This document shows positions 1,447 to 60,009 of a stretch of 64,000 bases of DNA, piece by piece. The position numbers and the translations under genes are program-made. The number at the start of each line of letters is the position of its first letter. Positions within the stretch are counted from its first letter, which is position 1. Under the pieces are notes generated by a model that was given only the letters and a program-made list of their open reading frames with translations, searched no databases and was not told where the DNA came from. The stretch is taken from contig CM072341.1 of assembly GCA_036874045.1 (NCBI GenBank), positions 2,058,501 to 2,122,500 of the forward strand. Direction: 5' to 3'. The stretch comes from Cymodocea nodosa. Lineage: Eukaryota > Streptophyta > Magnoliopsida > Alismatales > Cymodoceaceae.

Positions 1447-4400
1447 TGTTGAGTATTTTGTTTTGATGATGTGTGCTGAATGAAAATAATCATATTTGCT
1501 CAATTACTATTGCTTGTGAAAAGAAATTAAAATCATCAATTAATACAGAAAAAGCTTACTAATATAAATACTTGTCTGTATTAGATCTGAGATTATACTA
1601 AGTTAATAATTAGTCATTTTGTTGCATTAATTTCTCATTTAACTAAACGTTAAGTTAACGTGTATTTTTTTATTGAAAAACATGATATATTTTAAAGTTA
1701 TATTTTTTATATCATGTACAGTGCACATTTAGACAACTCGTTAAGTTAGAGTTTTATTTGTATAGAAGTCACGTGAGAACTCGTTAAGTTAAAGGCTTAA
1801 AGGTTAAAATAGGTCATGTGAGAACTCGTTGAGTTAGTGAATAAAAGAAGAGACGAACTCGTTAAGTTAGTGATGTACACGTGATGAAATTATAAGTTAC
1901 AAATGTTATATTGTATCACGTGAGGTGCACATGTTTAACTCGTTAAGATAACATAACTAAACGCGTTGAGTTGCTATATTGAACACTAACGCAACACGTT
2001 AGGTTAGCATTATAAAACTTAAGTTGTTATTTTTTGTAGGATCGTATGGCTACACAAGAGGGGGGTGAATTGTGTATTTTTAATATTTTCTGAAATATAA
2101 TTGAAACTTTAAGACTCAAAAACAAGTCGAGACATTGTTTTCATAAAATCATTTTTATTCAAGGTTTCAATACAATATACAATTCAATTCTCCTTAGAAA
2201 TTGTAGATGCAATTATATTTCGATACCATGTATCATCTAAACAATTTCATAACTACAAACAGAGAAAACTAATTTGCGGAATTTAAAACTTTTCTCCCTG
2301 TTTAAGATCTTTCTTCTTCTTCATCAATTCTTCAGTGACGAATATCTTGTCTTTTCATGCTTCACTGAATTTGCTTTCTTCTGATACTTCAAATCTTTAG
2401 TAACGAAAATTTTACCTTTTTATGCTTCACTGAACTTTCTTCCACTTGAGAGATTTTTCCCGAAGAGGTGTTTTTGATCCTTGAAAAAGATTTTTCTTTT
2501 GGTGTGCAGGGATGGTTTGATCCTTGAAAAGATTTTTCTTTTTGTGTGCAAGGATAAATTGATCAACGAGAATTCTATGCCTTTTATACTGTATCTTCAT
2601 TTCATGCATATCCTTCATGTTTAACCACTACCAATTTTCCACTTCTCCACGTCTTTTCTTTTTCCTTCATCGAAACACACACGTTCTAACCCACGTTTAT
2701 ATTTCGAATTTTCTTTAATCATCAGTCTTGGATCTCTGAAAAATTTCCTACAAAATAACCTTTCTCGTCCAAAAGTTTTTCATCAGTGTAATAAGAAGTC
2801 GTTACTTTAATGTTAACTAAACAAGTAACACAAGTATATATATAACTTAATGTTTCTAACTTAACGAGTTCCTCATGTGCCATTTCACGTGACAAGTACT
2901 GTAGCTAATTCAACGAACTAAGTCTGTAGTGTTATGCTATCTCAACGAACCATCTCCATTGTGTTATGATAACTCAACGAACCATTTCCGTTGTGTTATG
3001 ATAACTCAACGAACCATTAATAAACAAATGTTTTTATAATAAGAATTTTACCACGTGCAAAAAATAACAACTTAAGTTTATAACGCTAACCTAACGCGTT
3101 GCCTTAGTGTTCAATATAGCAACTCAACGCGTTTAGTTATGTTAACTTAACGAGTTAAACATGTGTACCTCACGTGATACAATACAACATTCGTAATTTA
3201 TAATTTCACCACGTGTATAACGCTAATTTAACGAGTTCGTCTCTTCTTTTACTCACTAACTTAACGAGTTATCACGTGACCTATTTTAACCTTTAAGCCT
3301 CTAACTTAACGAGTTCTCACGTGACCTCTATACAAACAAAACTCTAACTTAACAAGTTGTCTAAACGTGCACTGTTCATGATACAGAAGATATAACATTA
3401 AAACATATCATGTTTTTCAATAAAAACACACGTTAACTTAACGTTTAGCAAAATGAGAAATTAATGCAACGAAATGACTAGTTATTAACTTCAGATCCAA
3501 TACAGACAAGTATTTATATCAGTAAGCTTTTTCTGTATTAATTGATGATTTTAATTTCTTTTCACAAGCAATAGTAATTGAGGAAATATAATTATTTTCA
3601 TTCAGCACACATCATCAAAACAAAAATACTCAACATTTTTGCACGTGGTAAAATTCTTATTATAAAAAACATTTGTTTATTACTGGTTCATTGAGTTATC
3701 TGTAATACAACGGAGATGGTTTGTTGAGTTATCTGTAACACAACGGAGATAGTTCGTTGAGTTATCTGTAACACCACAGAGATAATTCGTTGAGTTAGCT
3801 AGAACACTTTTCACGTGAGTTGGCACATGAGAAACTCATTAAGTTAGAAACGTTAAGTTAATATCTACTTGTGTTACTCGTTTAGTTAACATTAAAGTAA
3901 CGACTTCTTATTACACTTGATGAAAATAGACGAGAAAGTTTATTTTGTAGGAAATTTTTCAGAGATTCAGGATTGATGGTTAAAGAAAAATTTGAAATGT
4001 AAATGTTGGTCAAAACGTGTGTATTTCGATGAAGGAAAAAGAAAAGACGTGAAGAAGTGGAAAACTGGTAGTGATTAAATGTGGAGGATATACATGAAAT
4101 GAAAATACAATATAAAAGGCATAGAATTCTTGTTGATCAGTTATCCCTGTACATCAAACAAAAAATCTTTTCAGGGATCAAAAACACCTCTTCGGGGAAA
4201 AGCTCTTAGGTGGAAGAAAATTCAGTGAAGCAGAAAAAAGGTCAGATTTATGTCACTGAAGATCTGAAGTATCAAGAGAAAGCAAATTCGGTGAAACATA
4301 AAAAGACAAAATATTTGTCATTGAAGAATTGCTGAAAAAGAAAAAGAAGAAAGATCTCAAATAGGAAGAAATGTTTTAAATTCTACAAATTAGTTTTCTC

Positions 4401-4625
4401 TATTTGTAGTTATGAAATTGTATAAATGAAACATAGTATCGATATATAATTGCATCTACAATTTTTTAGGAGAATTGAATTGTATATTGTAATTGAAACC
4501 TTGAATAAAAATGATTTTATGAAAACAGTGTCTCGACTTGTTTTTAAGTTTTAAAGTTTCAATTATATTCGAAAATGTTGAAAAACACAATTCACCCCCC
4601 TCTTGTGTAGCCATACAATCCTACA
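1447..4625 (+). repeat. 3' LTR of copia element A, split by a nested LTR
   Basis: The LTR runs 1447-2034 and resumes at 3641-4625, about 1.57 kb without the insert. It starts TGTTGAG and ends CCTACA. The U3 half is packed with short motifs: CACGTGAGAACTCGTTAAG (around 1766), further CACGTG at about 1876 and 1914, and repeated AACTCGTTAAGTTAG. The second part has repeats of GTTGAGTTATCTGTAACACA. The end, with CCCCCCTCTTGTGTAGCC, is typical of this copia group. Flanking bases 4626-4630 (TCAAT) would be the target duplication, whose partner is off-window. Confidence 0.85.
2035..3635 (-). mobile_element. Solo LTR of the A/B copia family nested inside the LTR of A
   Basis: A full 1.6-kb LTR in reverse orientation: plus-strand ends TGTAGG and CTCAACA are the complements of the normal 3' and 5' ends. 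It is bounded by TTTTT at 2030-2034 and 3636-3640, a 5-bp target duplication, and the host LTR sequence is continuous across the insert. No internal domain or primer site is present, so the element was reduced to a solo LTR by LTR-LTR recombination. It matches the LTR at 32773-34451 closely. Confidence 0.88.
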
Positions 4626-6400: not shown

Positions 6401-6540
6401 CCAGCAACGACGCTAGAAAACTTGTTTGTTGTGAAAAGTTAAATCAGAAACTAGTCCTTAGCAACGGCACCAAAAAACTTGTTTGTTGTGAAAAGTTAAA
6501 TCAGAAACTAGTCCCAAACAACGGCGCCAGAAAACTTGTT
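6401..6540 (-). repeat. Triplicated primer-binding-site region
   Basis: Two full units of about 57 bp and a partial third lie in tandem. Each holds a primer-site variant followed by ACTAGTTTCTGATTTAAC and CTTTTCACAACAAACAAG (minus strand). The variant next to the LTR is TGGCGCCGTTGTTTGGGA, the middle one TGGTGCCGTTGCTAAGGA, the distal one AGCGTCGTTGCTGGGGA. None is a perfect match along its whole length: the proximal copy keeps the 5' half, the distal copy keeps more of the 3' half. Other LTRs here (28722) have a single site. Confidence 0.75.
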
Positions 6541-8493
6541 TGGGTTTTGTTAACTTCTGTAACTTGTTTATATTATTAATTCCTTTTAGAAGTAAACAAA
6601 CAACCTTTCATAGAAATTAGATATTAATTCTAATTTGTATTTTTAACTACAAGTGCACAATGTATATTGTATTTTTGTGCAAGTGCAGGTCAATCCCATA
6701 AAGATTGAGTAAGAATTATGTACTGTTCTGATTTTTATATTGAAGTATAAATGTGTTCAGTAAGCACTTCGTTGAGTTACAATTAACACAACGAACCTAG
6801 TTCGTGGAGTTATGGCTAACTCAACGGACTAACCTCGTAGACTTAAGTTAACTCCACAAGCCTATTTTTTCCAATTGAATATTGTTAATTATAGAGGAAT
6901 TCGACCAACCATTGGGCGGTTCCACAGATTGTAAATAACATCAATTAAGCTCTTTAATGTTAGTTAGTATTAGATTTATCATTAAGCAACACTAACAGTC
7001 AGATATTTCAAACATTAACCATTAAAATATTTAAGTATTTGGAATGAATCAATTTCAGTAAACTATAAAACTATTTTCTATTTTCTAAATCAAACAAACA
7101 TAAAACATTCACAATACTAACAATGATACCATTAATCATGATACAAAACAAATAATACAACACTTTAATACTAAACGTAAACATAGATAATTTGTTGTTT
7201 TTGGTATTTTTGTTTTGATATATTCTTGAAGATGAATGAAAGGTGAAATGTAAAAATCTCTATCGACAGTAAATGATTCTGTCACTACATGCGACGTGAT
7301 TACACCACTAAAAACTTAATCACTTACAATCTTGCCTCCTCTCCCTATAAAATCGTGAGTCCAAAATTACAAGATGATCTCCTCTTCAGCATACTAGCAT
7401 CAACCCGAAACCAAGGCTAGAAGCTTTACAATCTCCTACGATATGAGTCGGTGCTCGGTGAAAATGGCTTCCCTTCTCGCAACGCGATCACTCCTCACAG
7501 TAGTTGTCAGGCACCGTGTTTGGCTCGAAATCGACCCAACATCAGGAAAGTATTCTCACGGACCTCCAATGGTTGGTGATTTTGGTGGTGGTATAGAGCT
7601 TCAAGGAACTTCCGACGCTACCTACAGTTAGCGTGGTTCTCCACTACTACTCACACAATTTTTCTTCATCTTTTATATTTGTTATAGTAGTAACTACTCC
7701 TGCTTAGATGATCGGTTGGATTTCCTTCATTCATATTAGCGATGGTGATTTCTTCTTCATTCCACGAGTGAGTTCCTACGTGATACGTGCAATAGTGGTT
7801 TTCCTTCGAATGTCCTATTTCTGTAACTGCTATAGTGGCATATTAGAAAATATATGGTCCGTGGAGTTATAGATAACTCAACAGACTTACTTCGTTGATT
7901 TAACTATAAAACATGTGCAATAAAGAAATAAGCTGCTAGCATAACGCATTACCTTAGTGTGTATTCATATAACTCAATGCGTATAGTTATGCTAACTTAA
8001 CAAGTTATACATGTGCAACTCACGTGATATACTAAAGCATTTAAATTCAACACGTGCATAATTCTAACTTAACAAGTTCAGATATTTCGGAAACTTGCAA
8101 ACCTAACTATCTGATGCTCAGATGCATTTTGGATAGTTAACAAATAACTTACCGAACATTCACTTAAGTCATGCATTGATGTTTCAACACGTGTACTCTA
8201 GAAAATAATAAAATATTCTTTAAGGATTTAAAACATAACTGTCCGATACATGTAATATAACTCTCCAAAATAACAGAAAATTTGGATACTTAAGAATTAA
8301 AAACCTACAACTTACCGATAGTTCAGAAATGTACTAAATTAACATTAATTCCCTGAAATTATGCAGATTCTTTCATTAAAGCATATTACAATGCAATTAT
8401 AACATAATGGCTTAATTCTTATATGATAAGCTAAATATTATGCAATTAACCATCATTTAACCGTTAATATTATGCACTTTTTCATTCTAAACA
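6537..8493 (-). repeat. Athila-like LTR L1
   Basis: The minus-strand LTR runs from TGTTTAGAATG (8493) to CCCAAACA (6537), 1957 bp. Its 5' part (8490-8030) matches the LTRs at 12390, 26532 and 55848 and also the interior of copia C at 43765-44290. Its middle (about 7905-8060) matches the copia A/B LTR block with CACGTG and TTAACAAGTT/TTAACGAGTT motifs. Around 6770-6870 are hairpin repeats (GTTGAGTTACAATTAACACA). Confidence 0.85.
7443..7631 (+). other. Antisense ORF conserved in Athila-like LTRs (copy in L1)
   Basis: A 62-codon ORF on the strand opposite to its LTR. It begins MSRCSVKMASLLATRSLL and shares the frame and start with ORFs in the three other Athila LTRs (13728-13916, 27367-27801, 54473-54901). 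No known domain. It may simply be chance open sequence kept by recent common ancestry; see findings. Confidence 0.35.
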
Positions 8494-12180: not shown

Positions 12181-12389
12181 ATGGGAAAAGATGAAGGATT
12201 GATTGTTTATAGAACTAAACCAAGGTGTGTTATTCTATTACCAGATATTTTTATTAGAAATCCTATCACTAGAGAAGAATGGAATATAAGAAGACCTAAT
12301 ATGTTTGAAGTACCAATTGAAAATTATGGGTTAGCTTTAACATTTCTAATAAGATTCGACTATTCTTGAAAATTTGGTTTATTGGAGAC
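12181..12389 (+). pseudogene. Unrecognised ORF fragment upstream of LTR L2
   Basis: A 62-codon ORF (MGKDEGLIVYRTKPRCVILL...) ending in LALTFLIRFDYS just before LTR L2. It resembles no domain I can name. After the LTR, at about 14860, a frame with LTFHIKNRDQ resumes similar-looking sequence, so this may be the front of the ORF remnant at 14868-15560. Low confidence. Confidence 0.35.
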
Positions 12390-14823
12390 TGTTTAGAATG
12401 AAAAAGTGCATAATATTAATAGTTAAATGATGGTTAATTGCATAATATTTAGCTTATCATATGAGAATTAAGTCATTATGTTATAATTGCACCGTTATAT
12501 GCTTTAACAAAGGAATCTACATAATTTTAAGGAATTAGCATTAATTAAGTACATTTCTGAACTGTTAAATGATGGTTTATTGGAGACTATTTAGAATGAA
12601 AAAGTGCATAATATTAACGATTAAATGATGGTTAATTGCATAATATTTAGCTTATCATATGAGAATTAAGCCATTATGTTATAATTGCATTATTATATAC
12701 TTTAATGAAGGAATCTGCATAATTTCAAGGAATTAGCGTTAATTAAGTACATTTTTGAACTGTCGGTAAGTTACAGGCTTTGAAATTCTTAAGTATCTGA
12801 ATTTTTTATTATTTCAGAGAGTTATATTGCATATACCGGACAATTATGTTTTAAATATTTAAAGAATATTTTATTATTTCCTGGAGTACATGTGTTGAAA
12901 CATCAATGCATGATTTAAGTGGATTTTCGATAAGTTATCTGGTAACTATCTAAAATGCATCTAGGCATCGGATAGTTAGATTTGTAAGTATTCAAAATAT
13001 CCTTTTATTTATAAAACTTATTAAGGACACGTGTCGTGATATGAAAACCTGATTTAAGTGTGGTTTTATAATATTAAGCATGATCCATTTTATTTGCATA
13101 TATTTATATCATGTATAGGTGAACAGTAACAACTTGTTGAGTTAGTGTTCTTTTTGTTAAAAGATCGCATGCCAACTCATTGAGTTATAGGTTTAAAGGT
13201 ATAAAAAGATCACGTGAGAACTCGTTGAGTTATTGAGTAAAAACCGTAAATTATATATACGAACTCGTTAGGTTAGATTTATGCATGTGTTGAATTTAAA
13301 TGTTTTATTATGTCACATGAGTTGTACATGTATAACTCGTTAAGTTAGCATAACTATACACGTTGAGTTACTTGAATATACACTAAGGTAACACATTATA
13401 TTAGTAAGCTTATAAGTTATTTCTTTATTGCACGTGTTTTATAGTTAAATCAACGAAGTAAGTCCATTGAGGTATCTGTAACTCTACGGACCATTTATTT
13501 TCTAATATGCCACTGTAGCAGTTGCAGAAATAGGAAATTCGAAGGAAAACCATAATTGCATGTATCATGTAGGAATTCACTTGTGGAATGAAGAAGAAAT
13601 CACCATCATTGATATGAATAAAGGAAATCCAACTGATCATTTAAGTAGAAGCAGTTATTACTGAAAGAAATATAAAAGAGGAGAAAAAAACATGAATAAG
13701 GTGTGTGTACAAAGGTGGAGAATCGTGCTAACTATAGGAAACGTCAAAAGTTCCCTGAAGCTCCACACCACCACCAAAATCACCAACCATCGGAGGTCTG
13801 CGAGGATACTTTCTTGATGTCAGGTCGATTCTGAGCCAAACACAGTACTTGACAACCATTGTGAGGAGTGATCGCGTCGCGGGAAGGGAAACCATTTTCA
13901 CCAAGCACCAACTCATATCTCAAGAGATCGTAAAGCTTCTAGCCTTGGTTTCGGGTTGATGCTAACATACTGAAGAAGAGATCATCTTACAATTCTTGAT
14001 TCGCAATTCTATAGGGAGAGGAAGCAAGATTATAAGTGATTAAGTTTTCAATGGTGTAATTGCATCACATGTAGTGACAGAAGTTTTTACTATCGATAGA
14101 GATTTTTACATTTCACCTTTCGCTCATCTTCAAGAACATATGAAAACAAAAATATCAAAAACAACAAATTATCTATGTTTACATTTAGTATTAAAGTATT
14201 GTATTATCTGTTTTGTATCGTGATTAATGCTATCATTGTCAGTATTGTGATTGTTTTACATTTGCTTGATTCAGAAAATAGAAAATAGTTTTATTGTTTA
14301 TTGAAATTAATTCGTTCCAAATACTTAAAGATTTTAATAGTTAATGTTTGAAATATCTGAATGTTAGTGTTGCTAAATGATAAATCTAATATTAACTAAT
14401 ATTAAAGAGCTTAATTGATATTATTTGCATTCTATGGAACCACCCAATGGTTGGCCAAATTCCTCTGTAAATAACAGTATTTAACTGGAAAGATAGGCTC
14501 GTGGAGTTAACTCAAGTCCACGAGGTTAGTCTGTTGAGTTAACTGTAACTCCATGAACTAAGTTTGTTGTGTTAATTGTAACTCAACGGAGTGCTTAACT
14601 GAACACATATAAACTCCAATATAAAAATTGAAACAGTACACAATTCTTACTCCATCTCTTTGTGGGATCAACATATCCTTGCATACAAATACAATATACA
14701 CTGTGCACTTGTAGTTAAAATACAAATTGGATTTAATATCTAATTTGTGTGAAAGATTGTTTGTTTACTTCTAAAAATAATTATTGATATAATCATAAAA
14801 ACAGAAGTAACAAGGCCAAATCA
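12390..14823 (+). repeat. Athila-like LTR L2 with a duplicated start
   Basis: Begins TGTTTAGAATG at 12390. About 198 bp later (12588) the LTR start repeats (TATTTAGAATG) after a repeated TTTATTGGAGAC, so the first about 170 bp of U3 are tandemly duplicated. It ends CCAAATCA at 14823, followed by a degraded primer site (CTATCGTCGTTT). U3 carries the block shared with copia A/B (13080-13450), with GATCACGTGAGAACTCGTTG at about 13209. Hairpin units lie at 14505-14590. An antisense ORF occupies 13728-13916. No target duplication was found. Confidence 0.8.
13728..13916 (-). other. Antisense ORF in Athila LTR L2
   Basis: Sixty-two codons, start MSWCLVKMVSLPATRSLL, collinear with the ORF at 7443-7631 and ending with the similar tail GGGVELQGTFD (7443 copy: GGGIELQGTSD). 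Same caveats as that entry. Confidence 0.35.
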
Positions 14824-17098: not shown

Positions 17099-17204
17099 TT
17101 AACTTTCTCTTTTAAACATCATGACCAAATCATCAATATATGTATGCGAACAAGGATGAATAAATGTATGTGACGTATGAGTTGCCAGATCGTCGTGTGA
17201 AGTT

Positions 17205-17864
17205 TCAATAATATCCACCACGGCCATGTCCGTAGCCAGAGCCCGAACCAGACCCGTACCCAGAGCCACCGTGGCTGCCACCACCTCCACCTCCTCCGCC
17301 ACCGCCACCTCCGGCTCTTGCGTAGCCGCCGTTGCCAACACCATATCCGGAGCCACTACCGGATCCATGGCCGGAGCCACTTCCGCCATGGGATCCACCG
17401 CCACCTCCACCACCACCACCTCCCCCGCTGGCGTATCCACCACGTCCTCCACCGTGTCCATAACCAGAGCCAGAACCGTAGCCGCCTCCAGATCCGTGAC
17501 CGGAGCCACCCCCTCCACCACCACCTCCACCGCCACCTCCTCCTTGGGCATATGCGCCACCACCTCTTGCATATCCACTTCCATGGCCAGAGCCATATCC
17601 GTAGCCTTCTCCGTGGCCGCCGCCGCCGCCACGACCACCACCACCTCCGCCACCTCCTCCTTTGGCATATGCCCCACCACCTCTTGCATATCCACTCCCA
17701 TGGCCAGAGCCATATCCGTAGCCTTCTCCATGGCCGCCACCGCCACCACCACCACCTCCGCCTCCTCCACTGGCATATGCTGTCAACACCCTAGTGGCAG
17801 TGGTCATGCCCACACAAAGCATGACCAAAAGGGTGACACTTAGGAATTTGCCGGACCTAGCCAT
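17205..17864 (-). CDS. Secreted glycine-rich protein, copy 1 (GRP1)
   Basis: Intact, intronless, 219 codons. Residues 1-23 form a signal peptide (basic N-end MARSGK, hydrophobic core FLSVTLLVMLCVGM, likely cut after TTA-23). The mature chain is almost entirely Gly with Ser, Tyr, His, Ala and Arg. Five modules can be seen: two GHGEGYGYGSGHGSGYARGG units, one GYGSGSGYGHGGGRGGYA unit, one GSGHGSGSGSGYGVGNGGYA unit and a final GYGSGSGSGYGHGRGGYY, separated by runs of 8-13 Gly. No Cys remains in the mature protein. This fits class I plant glycine-rich cell-wall proteins, exported and possibly cross-linked through Tyr; the role is inferred from composition. It differs from GRP2 at a few sites (for example AYAKGG for AYAQGG). 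The ATG is the only one preceding the signal peptide. Four reading frames across the gene are open because of Gly-codon bias. Confidence 0.93.
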   Translation of the reverse strand: MARSGKFLSVTLLVMLCVGMTTATRVLTAYASGGGGGGGGGGGGHGEGYGYGSGHGSGYARGGGAYAKGGGGGGGGGRGGGGGHGEGYGYGSGHGSGYARGGGAYAQGGGGGGGGGGGGGSGHGSGGGYGSGSGYGHGGGRGGYASGGGGGGGGGGGSHGGSGSGHGSGSGSGYGVGNGGYARAGGGGGGGGGGGGSHGGSGYGSGSGSGYGHGRGGYY

Positions 17865-18264
17865 TTTCTTGGTTGGTTTTGTGATGAATGGAGTGGAGCG
17901 ATGTAAGAGTTGAGTTGGGTTGTGGAGATGGGATTCTCATGGGTATTTATAGGAATTTGACGTCGCCTGTGTGCTTACAGTTGTTGTTGTGAAAATTTTA
18001 ATCTCTTTCAGCGTTCGGAGAGGTGAAGCTTGACTTGGGAATACGCGTTTAAGGGCAATTGCAACTGCTAAGTCATGGTTTGTCCGTTGTATCTGCTGGA
18101 CAAGATGAGGCATATGGACATTTGTTGGGTATTGACTTCTTGTGTCGAAAGGAACCCCGAGCTAATTAACTAAAAAACTTTGCTTCACCTTTCACGGATT
18201 TGCAATACCGTGTTGTCGTATGCACGCTTCCCCAGCGGACGTATGTATTATTAGACGCACGTTT
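17865..18264 (-). promoter_or_regulatory. GRP1 promoter region with TATA box
   Basis: TATTTATA on the plus strand at 17944-17951 (TATAAATA in gene direction) lies 80 bp upstream of the ATG, as in GRP2 and GRP3. The about 400 bp upstream match the other two promoters, including the conserved TTTGTTGGGTATTGACTTCT, but GRP1 carries about 45 extra bases near 18060-18105. Similarity to GRP2/GRP3 ends near 18263, where a copia LTR fragment begins. Confidence 0.75.
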
Positions 18265-24204: not shown

Positions 24205-24702
24205 CATTTGTCAAGTGAGTCAAAGTTCAAATACACTACTTAAGTGTGAATGGATTTGGATACGAAGTAGTTTTTTAATTTAATGAAAAGGCCCCAGGAA
24301 AAAAAGGCGATGCAGTAGTGCAAGCATTATCATACTCCAAGTCAAACTTGCGTCTAATAATACATACGTCAGCTGGGGAGGCATGCATGCGACAACACGG
24401 TATTGCAAATCCGTGAAAGGTGAAGCAAAGTCTTTTAGCTATGGGTTTCCTTTCGTCACAAGAAGTCAATACCCAACAAATGTCCAACTGCCTCATCTTG
24501 TCTAGCTGTTGCCCTTAAACGCGTATTTCCAAGTCATGCTTCACCTCTCATAACACTGAAAGAGATTCAAATTTTCACACCAACAAATGTAAGCATACAG
24601 GCATCGTCAAATTCCTATAAATATCCCTGAGAATCCCATCTCCACAACCCAAATCAACTCTTACATCGCTCCACTCCATTCATCACAAAACCAACCAAGA
24701 AA
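24205..24702 (+). promoter_or_regulatory. GRP2 promoter region with TATA box
   Basis: TATAAATA at 24616-24623, 80 bp before the ATG. Upstream sequence to about 24260 is nearly identical to the GRP3 promoter (60661-61110). Blocks of the type TGAGTCAAAG-T--AATACA...GTGAATGGAT recur at 24205-24255, 23975-24030 and 21395-21450, so the upstream region grew by local duplication. The untranslated leader is CT-rich (CCATCTCCACAACCCAAATC). Confidence 0.75.
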
Positions 24703-25362: not shown

Positions 25363-25939
25363 AACTTCACACGACGATCTGGCAACTCATACGTCACATA
25401 CATTTAATCATCCTTGTTCTAATTCGCTCTGGGCATAATTTCCATTCCCTAATATAAATAAAGTAGTGGATGCTTGCAATCTACAATATGTACGCACACA
25501 ACATTACAAATAAACTCTTCATTGTTGAGATCAAACAATTAATTACCTGCTCTTTTTGTTTTCTTGTTTATTGTTGGTTTAAACACAGGCAATTTATTAT
25601 GTTTCATATTGGAATTTGGATATACATATATTACCCAAGTTAGATGTTGGGATTTCAAAATCATACTAAGTGATTTACATGTACATTGGTGTTGTCCATA
25701 AAAGTAATAATTGCACGTCTTAAATACATGAAATAGTTGTACTTATCTAAAACTGTCTTAAGAGCAAGACAAATAAAATAATATATAACAACCTTGTTAT
25801 AATCCATAAGTTATAAATAGTTTTAACAAACTTAGAATTTTTATATTTACTAAAAGGTTTAGAATTACCCTACTCAGAGTAGACCCATGCATAAGGCCCT
25901 TAATATAATAAGTAAGTTTTGTTTTCTAGATGATTCACA
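25363..25939 (+). other. GRP2 3' flank
   Basis: No further gene. It shares order and sequence with the 3' flank of GRP3 (59420-60009) and, more diverged, with 21850-22203. Contains the polyadenylation signal at 25457. At about 25937 it jumps into a copia gag fragment, where the right arm still has about 2 kb more. Confidence 0.7.
25457..25462 (+). terminator. Polyadenylation signal of GRP2
   Basis: AATAAA 95 bases after the stop codon, in TATAAATAAAGTAG. GRP3 has the same motif (TTTATT on the plus strand at 59909-59914). Confidence 0.6.
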
Positions 25940-26531: not shown

Positions 26532-28722
26532 TGTTTAGAATGAAAAGTGCATATTATTAACAGTTAAATGATGGTTAATTGCATAATATTTAGCTTATCA
26601 TATGAGAATTAAGCCATTATGTTATAATTGCACTATTATATGCTTTAATTAGAATTACTACTTAATTTTAGGGAATTAATGTTAATTTAGTACATTTATG
26701 AACTGTCAGTAAGTTGCAGGCTGTGAAATTCTTAAGTATCTGAATTTTCTGATATTTCGAACAGTTATGTTTAACATACCGAACATATTTTGAACAGTTA
26801 TGTTTAATAGACCGAACATGTCGGATAGTTATGTTTACATTGCTAAATAGTTATGTTTTGAAAAAATATTTTATTATTTCCTGAAGTACACATGTCAAAA
26901 TCATAATGCATGACTTAAGTGAACTTTTGGTGAGTTATCTATAACTATCCGAAATTGCAGTTGGGCATCGGATAGTTATATGTGTAACTCTCCGAAATCT
27001 CTTTTCATTTATAAAATAGATGTGAACACGTGTCATGTTCTGGTAAAGTGACTTAAGTGGATTTTCAGTGAGTTATCTCTAACTATCCGAAATACATCTG
27101 AGCATCGGATAGTTAGCCCTGTAACTCTTCGAAATGTTTATTTTATTATTAAACTACTACTGACACGTCTCGAGATTTTGTAGATTTATTTAAGTTATAT
27201 ATCGGTGAGTTATCTATAACTATCCGAAATGCATCTGAGCATTGGATAGTTAAGTTTATAAGTATCCGAAATGCACCTAAGCATCGAATAGTTAAATTTA
27301 TGCATGTGTTTTATAGTTAAATCAACGAAGAAAGTCCATTGAGTTATCTGTAACTCCATGGACTATTTATTTTCTAATATGCCACTGTAGTGGTTGTAGA
27401 AACAGGACAGTTGGAAGAAAAACCACGATTGCATGTATCGCGCAGGGAGAAGAAAGCATTGCCGTTGATATAAATGAAGGAAATCCAACCGACCAATTCA
27501 AGTAGAAGCAATTACTACTGAAGAAATATAAAAGAAAAGAAGAAAAAGAAGAAAAGTGTGTGATCGATGGACAGACAGTGTGTACAGAGGAGCACCGAGC
27601 TTTCTGCAGACAGTATTGGCAATTCTCCAAAGTACTATACCAACCATCGTTACCACCACCATAATCATCAACCATCGAAGGTCTGTGAGAATACTTTCTT
27701 GATGTCGGGTCGATTCCGAGCCAAACATGGTGTCTAACAATCACTATGAGGAATGATCGTGTCGCAGGAAGGGAAACCATTTTCACCAAGCGCCGACTCA
27801 TATTTCAGGAGATCGTAAAGCTTTTAGCCTTGGCTTCGAGTTGATGTCTGTATGCTGAAGAGAAGATCATCTTGCAATTCTGGACTCTCGATTCTATAGG
27901 GAGAGGAGACATGATTGTAAGTGGTTTAATTTTCAGTGGTGTAATCGCGTTGCAAGTAGTGACGGAAGTATTTTCTATCGAGTGAGATTACTTTACATTT
28001 CACCTTTCGCCCATTTCCATGTTCATATTAAAACAAAAATACCAAAAATAATTTATCTATATTTGTATGTTTTATTTGAGTGTTGTATTGTTTGTGTTGT
28101 ATCGTGATTAATGTTATCTTTGTTAGTGTTGTGATTGTTTTATATTTGTTTTAGTTTTACAATTTACTGAAATTGTTTCGTTCAAAAGACTTAAAGATTT
28201 TAATGGTTACTATTTGAATTATCTGAATGTTAGTATTGCTTAATGATAAATCCAGTGTTTACTAACATTAAAAAGCTAAATTGATGTTATTTACAATCTG
28301 TGGAATCGCCCAATGGTTGGCCGAATTCCTTTGTAAATAGCAATATTAAAAAGAAAAGGGAGGCTCGTAGAGTTAACTTAAGTCTACGAGGTTAGTCCGT
28401 TGAGTTAGCCATAACTCAACGAACTTTGTTCATTGAGTTAACTGTAATTCAACGGAGAGCTTATTGAATATATAAATTTGATTGTTAACAAACGAACAGT
28501 TCTCAAGTTCTTCAGCAATTCCCTATGAGATCGACCTATACTTGCACACTGATACAATAGACATTGTGCACTTGCATTTAAAGTACAAATTGGAATTAAT
28601 ATCTAAATTGTATTAAAGGTTGTTTGTTTACTTTTGAAAAGAATGGGCATAAAGATAAATTAAGTAAAAACAGAAGTAACAAATCCAAGTTTTTCTAGTG
28701 TTGTGCTAGGAAAACACAAACA
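26532..28722 (+). repeat. Athila-like LTR L3 (5' LTR)
   Basis: 2191 bp from TGTTTAGAATG to AAACACAAACA, followed 7 bases later by an intact primer site, so it is a 5' LTR. U3 holds about three tandem 135-150-bp units (26905, 27050, 27187), each with ACTTAAGT(G), GTGAGTTATCTATAACTATC and a 10-bp hairpin AACTATCCGA...TCGGATAGTT; CACGTG lies at about 27027. Hairpin units GTTGAGTTAGCCATAACTCA lie at 28360-28460. It is inserted in the gag of copia E. Confidence 0.88.
27367..27801 (-). other. Antisense ORF in Athila LTR L3, 144 codons
   Basis: Starts MSRRLVKMVSLPATRSFL and continues much further than in L1/L2, with a Phe/Ser-rich hydrophobic stretch (FSSFLLYFFSSNCFYLN) that L4 shares (54473-54901). 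No known domain or signal-anchor rule satisfied. Coding status uncertain. Confidence 0.35.
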
Positions 28723-32772: not shown

Positions 32773-34451
32773 TGTAGGATCGTATGGCTACACAAGAGGG
32801 GGGTGAATTGTGTATTTTTAATATTTTCTGAAATATAATTGAAACTTTAAAACTCAAAAACAAGTCGAGACATTGTTTTCATAAAATCATTTTTATTCAA
32901 GGTTTCAATTACAATATACAATTCAATTCTCCTTAGAAATTGTAGATGCAATTATATTTCGATACCTTGTATCATCTAAACAATTTCATAACTACAAATA
33001 GAGAAAACTAATTTGCGGAATTTAAAACTTTTCTCCCTGTTTGAGATCTTTCTTCTTCTTCTTTTTCTTCTTCAGCAATTCTTCAGTGACGAATATCTTG
33101 TCTTTTCATGCTTCACTGAATTTGCTTTCTTCTGATACTTCAAATCTTCAGTGACGAAAATCTTACCTTTTTATGCTTCACTGAATTTGCTTTCTTCTGA
33201 TACTTCAAATCTTCAATGACGAAAATCTTACCTTTTTATGCTTCACTGAATTTGTTTCTTCCACTTGAGAGATTTTCCCCGAGAAGGTGTTTTTGATCCC
33301 TGAAAAAGATTTTTCTTTTGGTGTGCAGGGATAGTTTGATCCTTGAAAAGATTTTTCTTTTTGTGTGCAATGATAAATTGATCAACGAGAATTCTATGCC
33401 TTTTATACTATATCTTCATTTCATGCATATCCTTCACGTTTAACCACTACTAGTTTTCCACTTCTCCACGTCTTTTTTTTTCTTTCATCGAAACACACAC
33501 GTTCTAACCCACGTTTATATTTCGAATTTTCTTTAATCATCAGTCCTGGATCTCTGAAAAATTTCCTGCAAAATAAACTTTCTCGTCCAAAAGTTTTTCA
33601 TCAGTGTAATAAGAAGTCGTTACTTTAATGTTAACTAAACAAGTAACACAAGTATATATATAACTTAACGTTTCTAACTTAACGAGTTCCTCATGTGCCA
33701 TTTCACGTGACAAGTACTGTAGCTAACTCAACGAACTAAGTCTGTGGTGTTATGCTAATTCAACGAACCATCTCCGTTGTGTTATGATAACTCAATGAAC
33801 CATCTCCGTTGTTTTATGATAACTCAACGAACCAGTAATAAACAAATGTTTTTATAATAAGAATATTACCACGTGCAAAAATAACAACTTAAGTTTATAA
33901 CGCTAACCTAACGCGTTGCCTTAGTGTTCAATATAGCAACTCAACGTGTTTAGTTATGTTAACTTAACGAGTTAAACATGTGCACCTCACGTGATATAAT
34001 ACAACATTCGTAACTTATAATTTCACCACGTATATAACACTAACTTAACGAGTTCGTCTCTTCTTTTACTCACTAACTTAACGAGTTATCACGTGACCTA
34101 TTTTAACCTTTAAGCCTCTAACTTAACGAGTTCTCACGTGACCTCTATACAAACAAAACTCTAACTTAACGAGTTGTCTAAACGTGCACTGTTCATGATA
34201 CAGAAGATATAATATTAAAACATATCATGCTTTTCAATAAAAACACACGTTAACTTAACATTTAGCTAATGAGAAATTAATGCAACGAAACGACTAGTTA
34301 TTAACTTTAGATCCAATACAGACAAGTATTTATATCAGTAAGCTTTTTCTGTATTAATTGATGATTTTAATTTTTTTTCACAAGCAATAGTAATTGAGCA
34401 AATATGATTATTTTCATTCAGCACACATCATCAAAACAAAAATACTCAACA
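32773..34451 (-). repeat. 3' LTR of copia B
   Basis: 1679 bp, TGTTGAGTATTT to GATCCTACA. Same family as the LTRs at 1447-4625 and 2035-3635. U3 carries CACGTGA plus CTCGTTAAGTTAG repeats (33655-34250) and the block shared with Athila LTRs. Confidence 0.9.
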
Positions 34452-34948: not shown

Positions 34949-37243
34949 TTAGCGACCCCTCCTAAGTATATCACTTATAGCATTACATATTTTATCTCCT
35001 AGATGCCTAATATCATTTCTGATGTCGTTAAGCACTGCATCTAAGTTAGAAGGTAGCTGCGTTTGCTGTTCTACTTGAACTGAATAACTTTGTTGTTGTT
35101 GTTGTTGTATATGGTCTGTATCAGGTTGTTGTTGTTGTTGTCGTTGAGGTTTATGCATGTCTTGGAACTTTTGCAAATCTTTGACACTAAATGCTCTCAT
35201 GCCTTTAGTTTCAGAGGGCCAGTCGGATAAATTCAATTGACTTGCAATGAGTCTACATACAGCATCACCATAAAATAACTTTGAACTCATATGCAGTAGT
35301 TGAGAAGTGAAAACATCAAACCAATTGATTTGAATTCTATTCAACAAGCTATAAGTTGCATATAAACAACTTCTGCTGACTTCCATATTGTGTCCAACTC
35401 TCTGAAATAAATTTGCATGCAATATATTTGCAATAAACCTTACCTCTACATTCAAATTTTCCATTAATCTCATTTCAGAATATACATTTGGAATTTTTGA
35501 TAAAGACTAAATGTTCCATTCTAGTTGTCTTATCATGTCAAATCTGTTGGTAACAACAACACCTTCATTCTTTAATCCTAAAACTTCAAAAATTAACTCA
35601 GGAGACAATATAAACTCTTGTTCATTTATTTGAGTTTTCAGAAAATTTCCATTCTTGACCAGATTGCTATAAAAAGCTGCAATAAGCTCTTTGTATTGCT
35701 TCCATTTCATTCTAACTAGCAAGAATTGAATGAGGCCTTAAAACTCAAATAGATCTCTTATGTCCATCAAATTTCTAAATTTTATTGGACGAGCATGCAG
35801 AATCTGACATGTAATCATATTATTGTATTTCTACAATGCTTCTTCATATCTAAAATGAATTGTATTACCTTGAATGTTTAACATTGTACACAAAGAAGGT
35901 GATACCTGAAGCCGTGATTCAGATTTTAATTCATCTTTAGGAACCTCTTCTTCAAAATGAATGTCATGTTGTTCCTCTTCCAAAATATTATCTTGAAGCT
36001 GCTCAGGTAAGCTTGATTCTTCAACTTCAACAGTGTTAGGAACATTGTCAATATGCTCAACATTCATCTGTTCAGTCTCTATAGAATGTTTAGAGTACAA
36101 TTTTTCTACAAATTCTACAGCCGGTGTATCTGTCTGTAATTGTTCATTTTGTTCAACAAATATTTCCATTGATTCATGCTGTGAATTCTCAGACTCTGCT
36201 TCTATAGATTCTGTAGAAGGCTGGTTAACTTTTAGCTCTTCTAGAGTCTTAACAATTTCAATATCTGCTACTCCAGACAATTCAACCTTTGGACTAGTTA
36301 CTACCTCAACATTGTCAATTATATCTGCAATAACTTGTTCAATGTTAGGTGCCTGATGCTCTAATTTGTCAATTTCTGCATCATCAGGACTTCTACTAAT
36401 AGAAAAACTTGAGCTCATATTTGACTTGTATTTCTTCTCAAGCTTTCTAGCAAGGGAAAATAAAGTTTCATTATCTTCATCAGTTTCAGTGTGTTCGGAA
36501 CTGATGAGTTTATCAGATGCACAAAAAGGTACAATGTCTAGACATACATTGTCCTTTGGAAATAAATTTTCATCTGATTTTCCTTGTTCAAAAGACTTTG
36601 TTTCCTTAGACATAATTTTTCTGACTTTCCTTCTTCTATAACATTTCTGTTTCTCCTTTTCAAGTATTGCTGTTTTCTTTTCAAATTGCTCCATAAAAGT
36701 TTTCTGCTTTAATTCTTCTAAGGCACTTTCTATTGCAACGGTCTTTCGAAGACTATCAACTTTTGTTTTGTCTACAGCAATATTTGATTTTACTTGTTTT
36801 GAATATAAAGGAGTAGGGATAGTTGATTCATGTTCTTCCTCAAATGCATGTAGTCTTGTACCGTTTATAGGAGTTTGAGGAGTTCTATTTGATGAACCTA
36901 CACCTTTTTCCAAATATTTTGCATATTGTTCCAAAAATGCAATCTCTGCACGTTTCATACTATATTCTCTATCATATTTACTTCGAATACCCATTTATTT
37001 AATACTTGCATCAGTATGTTGAAGTTCTTGTCTAACTTCATCTAATATATCTTGAGAAAAGAAGTAATCTCTATAAAGTTCTTCTAACCTTTTGTCCACT
37101 CGAAATATTTTCTTGAACCAAGTACGTGGAACTTCATCATTCTCTATTTCTTTTACTTTTGCATCTCTTCTGCTTTTGCCTTTTCCTCTGCCACGACCTT
37201 TGTAGAACTTGGAGACCATCGTCACAGGTTGTAACAGCAACAA
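34949..37243 (-). pseudogene. Additional ORF of copia B, nearly full length
   Basis: All open pieces (37243-36995, 36994-35831, 35722-35507, 35473-34949) lie in one frame of about 765 codons, with about four in-frame stops. N-terminus basic (GRGRGKGKSRRDAK), then RLEELYRDYFFSQDILDE. The middle, about 390 codons, is acidic and low-complexity (Glu/Ser/Thr-rich) with one basic patch (KQKCYRRRKVRKI). The core follows: LVRMKWKQYKELIAAFYSNL, LIFEVLGLKNEG, RFIANILHANLFQRVGH, SCLYATY, IQINWFDVF, SKLFYGDAVCR. A poly-Gln stretch and a C-terminal helix IRHLGDKICNAISDILRR close it. It occupies the env position of SIRE elements, but no signal peptide or transmembrane segment was seen. The best copy of this ORF family in the window. 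Confidence 0.75.
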
Positions 37244-38802: not shown

Positions 38803-41800
38803 TTACACATCACATAGCCTACAAATACCTAAATTTAATCTAATGTTGCAAAATGTATTTTCGTCTAGAGGTTTTGTACTTAATTTATTTTTACTAGACA
38901 CAAATTCTAATTGAATTTTTCCTTTAATTACGTTATCTCTTAGAAAATGATGTCTAACCTCTATATGCTTTGCTCTTGAATGTAATACAGGATTTTTGGA
39001 AAGATTTATTGCAGAACTACTATCAAAATAAATCTCAATTGTATCATAAGATAATCCAAAATCTTTTAAAGTTTGCCTTATCCATAGAATCTGAGTGCAA
39101 CACAGTGCAGCGGCAACATATTCAGCTTCTGTAGTAGAAAGTGTTACACAGTTTTGCTTTTTACTAAACCATGACACCAAATTATTTCCCAATAATTGAC
39201 ATGTGACACTGGTACTTTTTCTATCAGATTTAGATCCTGCATAATCAGCATCAGTATATCCTATAAGATCTATTGAACTATCCTTAGAATAATACAATCC
39301 GAAATTTTTAGTTCCTTGTATATATCTAAATATTCTTTTAACTGCAATTAAGTGTAATTCTTTAGGATTAGATTGAAATCTAGCACAAACACACACAGCA
39401 AACATAATATCAGTTCTACTAGCAGTCAAATAAAGTAAAGAACTAATCATACTTCTGTATTTTATTTGATCTATAGATTTTCCTATGTCATCAATATCTA
39501 ACTTTAAAGTAGTACTCATAGGAGTTCCTCGAATCCTTGTATCATTAAAATTAAATTTCTTAAGCATTTCATCTACATATTTTTCCTGATTTAAGAATAT
39601 ACCTTTATCCATTTGCTTAATTTGAAGTCCTAGAAAATATGAAAGTTCTCCTATCATACTCATTTCAAACTGATTAGTCATCTCTTCAGAGAATATTTCT
39701 ATCAACTTATCAGAGGTTGCTCCAAAGATTATATCATCCATGTATATTTGAACAACAATCTGATCTTTACCATCTCTCTTAATAAATAGAGTATGATCCA
39801 CTTTTCCCATGATATAGCCTTTTTCTATTAAAAAAGTAGACAATCTTTCATACCATGATCTAGGTGCTTGCTTCAAACCATATAAGGCTTTCTTGAATTT
39901 ATACACAAAGTCAGGATTTTTAATATCTTCAAATCCAGGTGGTTGTTTTACATAGACTTCTTCATTAATTAAACCATTTAGAAATGCACTCTTTGCATCC
40001 ATTTGATATAATTTAAAATCCATATAACAAGCATAGGCCAATAATATTCTAATACTTTCTAACCTAGCCACAAGAGCAAATGTTTCATCAGAATCTAATC
40101 CTTCTTCCTGTGTATACCCTTGTGCAACTAATCTAGCTTTATTCCTTATAATTTGACCAGTTTCGTTAGTTTTGTTTCTAAAGATCCACTTTGTACCTAT
40201 TATGGACTGATTTTCTGGTGGAGAGACTAATTCCCATACATCATTTCTGATGAATTGATTTAGTTCTTCTTGCATTGCCACTATCTAATTTTCATCAGAT
40301 GATGCTTCTTGTATATTCCTTGGTTCCACCATAGAAACAAACATACACATACTATTTAAATTTACTGAAGCTCTAGTTTTAACTCCCTCATTAATATTAC
40401 CAATGACTTGAGTAATGGGATGTGATGAAAAATAACGCCAATTTCTCTAATTTTCCTCAATATTCTCATCAACATCTGAAAGTCCATCACTTTCATCATT
40501 AGTTTGATCATTTAAGTTCATATTTTTGATTTTCTCAGATAAATCATCAATCTCTCTATTGATCTCTAACTCATTTGGAAAATTGATCATATCATCATTA
40601 TCAGCTTTAGATTGAGATTCTCTAAGAGAATTTTCATTGAAGCTTACATGGAGGGTTTCTTCAATAGTGCTAGAAGTCTTGTTATATACTCTATAGGCTT
40701 TACTTCTAGTAGAGTAACTTACAAAAATTCCTTCATCCGATTTGGCTTGAAATTTATCCCTTTTATCCTTAGTATTAAGAATAAAACACTTGCAGCCAAA
40801 TGGTTTCTTATAGGAAATTTTTGGAACCCTATTAAACATAATTTCAAAAGGAGTTTTATTAACATGAGGTCTTAAATGACTTCTGTTAATAACATAACAA
40901 GATGTATTTACTACTTCAGCCCAAAGATTTTGAGGTAACTTATGTTCATTCAACATAGTTCTGGCCATTTCTTGAAGTGATCTATTCTTTCTCTCAACAA
41001 CACCATTTTGACACGGTGCTCTTGGAAAAGAAAATCTGTGATCAATGCCATGCTCATTACAATAGTTATCCATTTGATCATTATCAAATTCAGTTCCATG
41101 ATCACTCCTAAGTTTTTGAATAGAGACACTTTGCTCATTTTGAACAAAATTGCAAAACATTTTAAATTTTTCAAAAACTTATGTCTTAGATGTTAGAAAA
41201 TATACCCAAGAGTATCTAGAGAAGTCATCTACTAAAACAAATACATACCGTTTACCACCAATACTCATGATTCTTGTTGGTCCAAATAGATCCATATGTA
41301 TAAGTTCTAAGACTCTCTTGCTTGAAATATCAGTTTTGGATTTAAAAGAGTTTTTGTGAAGTTTACCTAACTCACATGCATCACACATAAAGTTCTTTGA
41401 GTATTTAATCTTTGGTAAACCTCTCACTAAATGTTTTCTAGATAGTTTATGTAACAGTCTCATATTTATATGCCCAATCCTTCTATGCCATAGATATGCA
41501 TCACTAGTTTCAGCTAGCAAATATGAATTTAAATCAACTGCACCAGAAGGTAAAGATAAAATACATACAGAACATTTTCTTTTAGCAATAAACTTAATTT
41601 CATCTGTATTTTTATCAATTATTTTGCATACATTATCTTCAAACACTACATAATATCTATTTTCAGTTAGTTTTATGACACTCAGCAAATTAAATCCTAG
41701 GTTTTCTACATATAGTACATTCAGAATAACACAAGTAGGAGTTATTTGAACATTGCCCATACCTATGATTTTATCTTTGCTTCTGTTTCCAAATGTTACA

Positions 41801-42445
41801 CTTCCTTTCATGGTATTTGTAAAATTTTGTAATAGACTTTTTTGTCCGGTCATGTGACTTGACGCTCCACTATCCAAGATCCATTTTGATGTTGTTTCCT
41901 CCTCAGACTCATCTGCCATGAAGCACACATGAGCAACGTCTTCTAACTCTTGTTCTCCTTCTGAATGTGAAGATTTTGATGTTGATTCCTCAGATTCAGA
42001 CTCTTCAGATGTGTCATTCCAAGTGACCTTCAAAGTCTTTTTTTTGTAAAACTTTTTCTGAGTTTTCTAAGCCGTCTTCTTCTAATTTGTCCTACTTTGC
42101 TTTTCATTTTTCCTCATAGGACAGTCTAGAGAAAGATAACCAGGTTTCTTACAGTTGTAACATACATACTTTCTAGATGAAGAATTCTTGTCATTCAATG
42201 ATTTTGACGTTGAGGGTTTATCATTTTTGTTCCTTTGCTGTTTCCTAGCTTTCCATGCTTTCTTGAATTTCCTAGTCAGCAAAATCAAATCCTCGTTAGA
42301 ATCAGTAGATATATCAGAATCTGAATTAATTTCGAAGACTATTTCTTTCTTCATTTTTAGTTTGTTGTGACTCAGTGATTCATTTAATTGAACTTCATAA
42401 GCTGTTAAATTTCCTATAAGTTCATTCATAGAATAAATATTGAAA
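38803..42445 (-). pseudogene. gag-pol of copia element B
   Basis: One frame from about 42445 to the TAA at 38803, broken by about five stops (near 42080, 42062, 41180, 40448, 40288) with no shift. Domains in order: gag end with zinc knuckle CYNCKKPGYLSLDC (His replaced by Tyr); protease ILDSGASSHMTG; GAG-pre-integrase with WHRRIGH and CDACELGK (HHCC kept); integrase with HMDLFGP, RSDHGTEF and VVERKNRS (D, D, E kept); chromodomain-like linker; reverse transcriptase ([36 protein letters not shown]); RNase H (GYTDADYAGS, STTEAEY, VLHSRAKHIEVRHHFLRD). Stops correspond to Gln, Trp or Glu codons in C. SIRE-like by RT and RNase H sequence. The start of gag and the 5' LTR are missing. Confidence 0.9.
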
Positions 42446-53544: not shown

Positions 53545-55848
53545 TATTTGGTTTTTCCCAGCACTACACTAGAAAAACTTGGATTTGTTACTTCTGTTTT
53601 TACTTAGTTAATTTATCTTTATGCCTATTCTTTCTTTTAGAAGTAAACAAACAACCTTTAATACAATTTAGATATTAATTCTAATTTGTACTTTAACTGC
53701 AAGTGTATAGTGCCTATTGTATCAGTGTGCAAGTACAAGTCGATCCCACAGGGAATTGCTGACGAACTTGAGAACTATTTGCTTGTTAAAAATCAAATTT
53801 ATATATTCAATAAGCTCTCCGTTGAATTTTAGTTAACTCAACGAACTTAGTTCATTGAGTTATGGCTAACTCAATGGACTAACGTCCTGGACTTAAGTTA
53901 ACTCCACGAGCCTGACTTTTCTTTTTAATACTGCTATTTACAGAGGAATTCAGACAACCATTGGGCAATTCCACAGATTGTAAATAACATCAATTAAACT
54001 CTTTAATGTTAGTTAACATTGGATTTATCATTGAGCAATACTAACATTCAGATAATTCAAACAGTATCCATTAAAATCTTTAAGTCTTTTGAACGAGCCA
54101 ATTTCAGTAAACTGTAAAACTAAAATAAACATAAAACAATCACAACACTAACAAAGATAACATTAATCACGATACAACACAAACAATACAACACTCAAAT
54201 ACAACATACAAACATGGATAAATTGTTTTTGGTATTTTTGTTTTAATATGAACATGGAAATGGGCGAAAGGTGAAATGTAAAGTAATCTCACTTGACAGT
54301 AAATACTTCCAACACTACTTGCAATGCGATCACACCACTGAAAATTAAACCACTTACAATTCTGTCTCTTCTCCCTATAGAATCGCGAGTCCAGAATTGC
54401 AAGATGATCTCCTCTTCAGCATACAGGCATCAACCTGAAGCCAAGGCTAAAAGCTTTACGATCTCCTGAAATATGAGTCGGCGTTTGGTGAAAATGGCTT
54501 CCCTTCTCGCGACGCGATCACTCCTCACAGTGGTTGTCAGGCACTATGTTTGGCTCGGAATCGACCCGACATCAGGCAAGTATCCTCACAGACCTTCAAT
54601 GGTTGGTGATTATGGTGGTGATGATGATGGTTGGTGTGGTACTTCAGAGAATTGTGACGTCGATCCTCCTCTGCACACACTGTTCGTCCATCGATCACAC
54701 ACTTTCTTCTTTTTTTCTTCTTTTCTTTTATTTTTCGTCAGTAGTAACTGCTTCTGCTTGAATGGTCGGTTGGATTTCCTTCATTCATATCAACGACGAT
54801 GCTTTCTTCTCCCTACGCGATTGAATTCCTGTGTGATACATGCAAACATGGTTTTTCTCTTCCAACTATCTGTTCCTGCAACCGCTACAGTGGCATATTA
54901 GAAAATATAAAGAAATAAGCTGCTAACATAACGTGTTACCTTAGTGTAATATTCATGTAACTCAGCGCATACAGTTATGCTAACTTAACGAGTTAAGCAT
55001 ATGCATCTCACGTGATATTCTAAAGCATTTAAATTCAACACGTGCATAAATTTAACTATCTGATGCTCAGGTGCATTTCAGATACTTATAAACTTAACTA
55101 TCTGATGCTCAGATGCATTTCGGATAGTTACAAATAACTCACCGATATATAACTTAAGTAAATCTACCAGATCTCAACACGTGTTAGCAGTAGTTTAATC
55201 ATAAAATAACATTTCGGAGAGTTACAAGTCTAACTATTCGATGCTTAGATGCATTTCAGATAGTTACAGCTAACTCACCGAAAATCCACTTAAGTCACTT
55301 TCCCAGAACATGACACGTGTCCTCAGCTATTTTATAAATAAAAAGAGATTTCGGAGAGTTACAAGGATAACTATCCGATGCCTAGCTGCAATTTCGGATA
55401 GTTATAGATAACTCACTGAAAGTTCACTTAAGTCATTCATTATGGTTTCGACACGTGTACTTCAGGAAACAATAAAATATTCTCTCATAACATAACTGTT
55501 TGACAATTTAAACATAACTATCCAATACATGTTTGGTCTGTTAAACATAATTGTCTGAATATGTTCGGTATGTTAAACATAATTGTCCGAATATGTTCGG
55601 TATGTTAAACATAACTGTCCGAAATATCAAAAAATTCGGATACTTAAGAATTTCACAGCCTACAACTTACCGACAGTTCATAAATGTACCAAATTAACAT
55701 TAATTCCCCCAAATTAAGCAAATTCTTCAATTAAAGCATATAACAATGCAATTATAACATAATGGCTTAATTCTTATATGATAAGCTAAATATTATGCAA
55801 TTAACCATCATTTAACCGTTAATAATATGCACTTTTTCATTCTAAACA
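53545..55848 (-). mobile_element. Athila-like solo LTR L4 in pol of copia D
   Basis: 2304 bp on the minus strand, TGTTTAGAATG (55848) to the 3' end at 53545. It is flanked by TCTAC at 53540-53544 and 55849-55853, a perfect 5-bp target duplication. No primer site or internal sequence, so a solo LTR. U3 contains AACTATCTGATGCTCAG hairpins (55060-55400), the block shared with copia A/B (54905-55045), and the segment also found in copia C. Hairpin units at 53815-53920. Antisense ORF 54473-54901. Confidence 0.95.
54473..54901 (+). other. Antisense ORF in Athila LTR L4, 142 codons
   Basis: Starts MSRRLVKMASLLATRSLL; the longest conserved version together with 27367-27801. C-terminal half Phe/Ser-rich (FFFFSSFLLFFVSSNCFCLN). 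The frame matches L3 through most of its length despite small indels. No known domain. Confidence 0.35.
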
Positions 55849-59914: not shown

Positions 59915-60009
59915 TATATTAGGGAATGGAAATTATGCCCCAGGGCGAATTAGAACAAGGATGATTAAATGTATGTGACGTATGAGTTGCCAGATCGTCG
60001 TGTGAAGTT

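Follow-up and report, generated by a model that had tools for sequence, protein, structure and literature searches.

Exchange of parts of LTRs is already known among related retrotransposons. In work from 2010, Du et al. reportedly found LTR swapping between autonomous and non-autonomous elements of soybean. High-frequency recombination within an LTR family during bursts is described in PMC5668417, and for the Triticeae template switching is given as a process that makes complex elements (PMC1950507). For RLG_Cereba and RLG_Quinta of einkorn centromeres, PMC11302176 attributes an exchange between RLG_Quinta lineages to template switching, and exchange of regulatory sequence between elements is reported for endogenous pararetroviruses (PMC5491270). 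Among titles and abstract openings, mostly outside the subscription journals, no U3 exchange between Ty1/copia and Ty3/gypsy elements was recognised.

The DNA analysed here (the window: 64,000 nucleotides of Cymodocea nodosa, C13:2058501-2122500, from a genome of 374.6 Mb in 28 contigs) contains a nest of LTR retrotransposons. A protein search gave at least 120 matches; those listed have 52-67% identity, and the ones that bear a name come from angiosperms. A U3 segment of about 380 bp is homologous between a SIRE-type copia family and an Athila-like gypsy family in this genome, and has very probably been transferred at least twice, first in an old event and later from copia to gypsy. The features of the window are collected in Table 1.

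Table 1. Positions of LTRs, coding regions and copies of the shared block in the window.
Feature	Position	Strand	Remarks
Shared U3 block, full length (383 bp), in gypsy LTR L2	13054..13436	+	alignment to 33870-34253 (-)
Shared U3 block in SIRE-type copia LTR	33870..34253	-	alignment, shuffles
Block in copia solo LTR (2035-3635, -)	3052..3436	-	nested inside another copia LTR
Block in interrupted copia LTR (1447-2034 + 3636-4625, +)	1655..2034	+	
3' part of block (positions 202-383) in gypsy LTR L1 (about 6535-8493, -)	7912..8085	-	
3' part of block (219-360) in gypsy LTR L4 (about 53570-55848, -)	54915..55056	-	
Ty3/gypsy (Athila-like) LTR L2	12390..14823	+	starts TGTTTAGAATG; 3' end approximate
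Gypsy LTR L3, of the family of L2, without block	26532..28700	+	alternative GGATAGTTA repeats; 3' end approximate
Gypsy primer binding site region of L1 (TGGCGCCGTTG...)	6403..6542	-	tandem repeat about every 57 bp
SIRE-type copia LTR, TGTTGAG...CCTACA	32773..34451	-	preceded by polypurine tract AAAAAGGGGGAGAT
Copia pol upstream of that LTR	38803..42066	-	gag_pre-integrase, integrase core, SH3-like, then RVT_2
Two ORFs (387 and 185 aa) between copia pol and 3' LTR	34949..36994	-	

The two retrotransposon families

The copia family is taken to be SIRE-type from its polypurine tract, LTR end and structure. From 42066 to 38803 (-) and onwards, the coding domains are followed by the two ORFs, the polypurine tract and the block-bearing LTR. 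Neither ORF gave a Pfam match above the cut-off; their place fits the extra 3' ORF of SIRE elements, which PMC6317226 reports 3' of pol in 74% of them. Primer sites were read in 11 copia LTR rows, all of which except L014, L017, L018 and L022 are 3' LTRs, solo LTRs or cut. The sequence TGGTATCAGAGC lies within a few bases 3' of the block-bearing LTRs in L014, L018 and L022, and a degenerate form follows the one in L017. This 12-base sequence is of the type of a primer binding site that matches tRNA-Met. Most Ty1/copia groups use a tRNA-Met primer, according to PMC6317226. The copia solo LTR at 2035-3635 (-) sits on the opposite strand within the same-family LTR at 1447-4625 (+); it is flanked by the 5-bp duplication TTTTT, and its insertion point is the 3' end of the shared block.

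The lineage name Athila for the gypsy family is our assignment, from structure and motifs, and we take a primer binding site of the TGGCGCCGTTGCCGGGGA type to be that of Athila elements, tied to tRNA-Asp. Locus L015 has a block-bearing LTR (block at 3198-3585), then TAGCGCCGTTGCTGGGGA, then the domains RVT_1, RT_RNaseH, Integrase_H2C2 and rve; reverse transcriptase and RNaseH domains are also found in L090. The primer site reads TGGCGCCGTTG near window position 6538 (-) and in L091, and TAGCGCCGTTG (TAGCGCC) in L015. The best solved-structure match of the RNaseH-integrase ORF of L015 is Ty3 Gag-Pol. A general domain scan found no archaeal-type RNaseH, described in PMC6317226 as a mark of Tat elements, in the scanned ORFs of L015. 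The ATHILA ORF-1 domain is absent from the matches of nine proteins scanned up to E 5; the same source reports it in only 16% of Athila elements (PMC6317226). The domain order (integrase before RVT_2 in one family, RT-RNaseH-integrase in the other) and the primer site bear out the preliminary description, which had assigned the two families to different superfamilies.

The first ~190 bp of L2 are tandemly duplicated (12375-12565 and 12573-12763, 92% identical). The tandem arrangement of the primer-site region recurs in L009 (6923-7058), and some elements have two or three primer-site-like copies. Elsewhere in the window there are three copies of a diverged repeat in which several reading frames are open over long stretches simultaneously (17099-17936, 24631-25438 and 59919-60732).

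A U3 block common to both families

In a comparison of the window with itself, 13054-13436 (+) aligns collinearly with 33870-34253 (-) over 401 columns at 71.8% identity (E 9e-52). The local score of this pair is 222, while the maximum among 200 dinucleotide shuffles of the block is 30. The gypsy block also aligns with 3052-3436 (-) and 1655-2034 (+), the second of these up to 2007 in the self-comparison. A collinear block common to gypsy and copia LTRs had been claimed from reading alone, with 150 bp as the least length for it to be credible; the alignment of L2 with the copia LTR at 32773-34451 well exceeds this. The claim that L1 and L4 carry the block stands in part, both holding block sequence but solely from its 3' part, and L3 (26532 on) has no match to it at E 1e-8. 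Among the strings that had been listed as shared, CACGTGAGAACTCGTTGAGT occurs exactly only once in the window.

The block occupies positions 196-579 of the copia LTR when counted from base 34448 (199-582 from 34451) and 665-1047 of L2. Direct reading finds a TATA-like sequence 3' of it in both, TATAAAAGGCATAG at ~33406 in the copia LTR and ATATAAAAGAGG at ~13670 in L2. Outside the block, an LTR-to-LTR comparison of the two yields short motif matches only. Common descent of the whole LTRs, which had been considered implausible from the start, is rejected on this ground: long homology is limited to the U3 segment, and therefore the transfer of a module fits the data while descent of the entire LTR does not. 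Assembly chimerism had also been named as a possible source of the resemblance; the recurrence of the block in numerous copies and on numerous contigs makes this unlikely.

Six or seven copies of AACTCGTTRAGTTA (allowing up to three mismatches) and several G-boxes (CACGTG) lie within the block, the latter at positions that mostly match between the families. A second motif class, GGATAGTTA, is common to several LTR families: it is enriched in the LTRs L024 (1-1700, -) and L026 (1-1690, -) and in gypsy L3 and L4, each with at least 4 copies against an expectation, from 50 simulated sequences, of at most 0.02. It may be that a small set of motif arrays serves different LTR families in this genome.

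Such arrays raise the alternative that both families gained similar binding motifs independently, the block having no common descent. GTTRAGTTA, GGATAGTTA and CACGTG are indeed enriched in several LTR families, including the block-less SIRE-type L024 and L026, and motif columns are more alike (124/145 identical) than the remaining ones (164/221, 74%), with a Fisher p of 0.013 that is to be read with the motif columns having been picked for likeness to the motif. Against this, the order is collinear across 383 bp, identity outside the motifs is still 74%, the spacers alone score 59 where the maximum among 500 letter shuffles is 29, and the copia segment in L071 (see below) is identical up to 96%. 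Convergence is thus rejected on spacer identity and is extremely unlikely. Spacer score and spacer identity indicate homology of the whole block, beyond the isolated low-complexity words that had been feared, with the motifs somewhat better conserved. From its position, motif density and modest extra conservation, the block is a candidate enhancer.

Distribution in the genome

The copia junction of polypurine tract and LTR, AAGGGGGAGATTGTTGAGTA, occurs exactly 2096 times in the genome (control 0). In the first 30 of these sites in genome order, all on C1, the block is in place in 27 LTRs, among which L029 matches block positions 1-253 only and L041 has an internal deletion. The three others are L035, which matches the copia LTR only to position 64, L046, which runs into a gypsy LTR, and L049, which is rearranged. 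Block divergence tracks that of the adjoining LTR start, and the block has therefore been inherited with the copia family.

For the gypsy LTR start TGTTTAGAATGAAAAAGTGCATA the genome count is 6835 (control 0). The sample consists of 32 LTRs with this exact 23-base start, taken in genome order (12 at 1.5 kb and the next 20 at 651 bases) from C1 below 5.23 Mb. Block sequence is found in 21 of them: 13 have at least 97 bp of gypsy-type block (L057, L061, L062, L066, L067, L068, L073, L076, L078, L082, L086, L088 and L089) and eight have copia-type block sequence (L060, L064, L065, L071, L074, L075, L080 and L083). The remaining 11 (L058, L059, L063, L070, L072, L077, L079, L081, L084, L085 and L087) have none or only 25 bp. 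Four random 10-kb stretches gave two other SIRE-type LTRs, both lacking the block (L024 and L026), a gypsy LTR (L025) and, in L023, no matches.

Divergence of the block and a probable old exchange

Block distances average 3.5% among members of the first copia set, 10.6% among gypsy copies and 23.5% from one family to the other; with a wider copia set, which includes the poorly aligned L029, the values are 8.0%, 10.7% and 24.7%. In trees that leave out the mosaic gypsy copies, the gypsy blocks form one clade (support 100) attaching beside the deepest copia copies. This placement indicates that the split of the two blocks predates the sampled spread of either family, and it gives no direction for the old event. 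As to which family the block is older in, a point raised by the preliminary description together with the search for copies reported above, the trees name neither. The first transfer would be old, at ~24% divergence, and could have gone either way.

Mosaic gypsy LTRs

Within the last 105 bp of the block, 18 sites are informative for the two families. About half of these are inside or next to an indel, which makes their alignment less secure. All 38 copia tails have fewer than three gypsy states at these sites. Of the gypsy tails, 25 keep to the gypsy type and show no more than two copia states apiece, scattered (three of these tails are incomplete, and one is labelled N at the edge of its stretch). 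The ten mosaics among the gypsy rows come from eight of the 32 loci and, as L092 and L093, from both LTRs of one other element. Apart from L071, their tails begin as gypsy and end as copia, with the change at either of two points: L060 and L080 have two gypsy states and then 16 copia states, and L083 does likewise with one exception, while in L064, L065, L074, L075, L092 and L093 the copia states follow site 7 or 8.

The tail of L071 is copia at 17 of the 18 sites, and the replacement extends much further. This LTR, which was read by itself and is the one locus of its type in the sample, starts as gypsy, continues with copia LTR positions 142-582 and returns to gypsy at the block end. An 81-bp deletion, counted from overlapping matches, lies between two motif copies. 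By direct reading, the change on the left falls inside CTGAAGT, 7 bp that gypsy has in common with some copia copies, 2035-3635 and L046 among them; the copia copy at 32773-34451 reads CTAAAGT there. Since positions 142-198 of the copia LTR are part of the replacement and precede the shared block, copia is the donor. The copia stretch of L071 comes closest to L051 and L052 (96.1% identity); identity with the window copy is 95.0%, and the values for the two deepest copies are 86.7% (L033) and 85.3% (L047). With the best-scoring gypsy block, identity is 85.1% and covers only 262 of 361 bases.

Could the mosaic tails instead be ancestral sequence retained since a single ancient transfer? An AU test holding all gypsy tails together does not reject one clade for the 105-bp tail (p 0.548), the held tree being 0.96 log units better than a quick free tree, so the tail tree alone is no proof and a second transfer has to be argued from the ordered mosaic sites and L071. 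In the gypsy-flank tree, L060 and L064, both mosaics, branch first in a subfamily that also holds the gypsy-tailed L061, L062, L067 and L025, as retention would have it. Retention does not, however, account for copia sequence upstream of the shared block in L071, nor for its being nearer to young copia copies than to deep ones (96.1% against 85-87%). By direct reading, moreover, there are 2 differences in about 75 positions between the tail of L060 and the window copia, where whole blocks of the families are ~24% apart, and most mosaics have young-copia tail states that are missing in the deep copia copies and the other gypsy copies that were read; L083 has one of these in the old state. A single transfer is therefore unlikely, though for the shortest tails some gypsy lineages may have retained an old copia-like tail. 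The history preferred here would include a second, more recent transfer, in which a recent-type copia U3 segment replaced the matching part of a gypsy U3; copia-type tails would then have spread to many gypsy elements, in part by further recombination that left a shorter copia tail.

Amplification of the mosaic LTRs

The junction between copia tail and gypsy flank, GTTGTTATTTTTGCACGTGTTTTATAGTTAA, is found at 888 sites with at most one mismatch (control 0). Among 100 listed places, all exact and on C1 to C3, neighbours less than 20 kb apart share a strand in 21 cases and lie on opposite strands in 4; in 18 of the 21 the spacing is 12.4-16.7 kb. Paired LTRs of full-length elements would produce such a pattern. 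One such pair (C1:13987328 and 14001984) has LTR pieces identical at 574 of 601 positions, both mosaic, the primer site TGGCGCCGTTGCTGGGGA and an interior with RVT_1 and RT_RNaseH. Here sequence of a foreign family is present in the LTRs of an element with a coding region of its own family. Since both LTRs are mosaic and the interior is gypsy, a gypsy element carrying copia-type U3 sequence has transposed.

The same junction bears on the possibility that a copia solo LTR was inserted in a gypsy LTR and later trimmed. Nested solo LTRs do occur, as with 2035-3635 inside 1447-4625, but such an origin is highly unlikely: the right boundary recurs at 888 places, and in L2, the one gypsy LTR compared in this respect, no ends of a copia LTR were found next to the block.

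Possible routes of exchange

The U3 region is present once in retrotransposon RNA, near the 3' end, and is copied to both LTRs; one switched patch therefore yields two chimeric LTRs. We lean slightly towards an exchange by template switching of reverse transcriptase. A double switch within U3 would account for the matching LTRs and agrees with the short match where L071 turns to copia sequence; it would require RNAs of both families to be packaged together.

An exchange at the DNA level, by gene conversion or microhomology repair between nested or neighbouring copies and followed by amplification of the converted gypsy copy, is plausible though not the route we favour. The two families have copies nested next to one another, and the right junction coincides with the point where the homologous block ends, which is what gene conversion would leave. 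L047 and L046, discussed below, have copia-LTR-to-gypsy-LTR junctions of the kind left by deletion between nested copies. Against this route, L071 changes to copia sequence on its left at a point beyond the homologous block, and in the pair examined the same patch is present in both LTRs, so it passed through an RNA stage at least afterwards. This alternative concerns the route only and overlaps with the explanation given above. The earlier proposal that a promoter module moved between superfamilies, by recombination or template switching, is accordingly upheld as to the transfer, by homology confined to U3 in two superfamilies; either route would fit.

The copia LTRs of L047 (C1:7006309, -) and L046 (C1:6981219, -) run into a gypsy LTR at about L2 positions 1194-1201, in L047 directly after the copia TATA-like box. 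They were considered as chimeric LTR families and set aside: L069 shows a further gypsy LTR downstream of L047, and the junctions may be deletion scars.

A more general picture, put forward tentatively, is that of a common pool of exchanged U3 enhancer modules, in which the RNAs of the families would meet in one particle and switching would occur at repeated motifs or short matches, with the acquired copia segment perhaps aiding gypsy amplification.

Comparison with known systems

If the history proposed here is true, repeated exchange across superfamilies, followed by amplification, would spread promoters genome-wide rather than by descent within each lineage. It would also mean either that the RNAs of two superfamilies share a compartment in which strands can be transferred, or that recombination between nested DNA copies is frequent enough to found new families. 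LTR similarity alone would be an unsafe basis for classifying elements, and natural promoter swaps of this kind would offer material for testing the causes of element-family expansion.

As in the LTR swapping of soybean, LTR sequence appears to have moved between retrotransposon families by recombination; the soybean partners were reportedly related, whereas here they are Ty1/copia and Ty3/gypsy elements and only a U3 segment moved. The recombinant LTR elements of an active family in PMC5668417 are a further likeness, with the difference that recombination there is described within one family. The Triticeae elements share the joining of two parent sequences by template switching during reverse transcription, but are presented in PMC1950507 as large fused elements, in contrast to an exchanged U3 module in an amplified family. 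Sequence exchange is likewise common to RLG_Quinta, where, in the account of PMC11302176, it is between lineages of one family, around gag, and crosses no superfamily boundary. The endogenous pararetroviruses of PMC5491270 resemble the present case in repeated, region-specific exchange of regulatory sequence between different elements of one host, and differ from it in not being LTR retrotransposons of different superfamilies.
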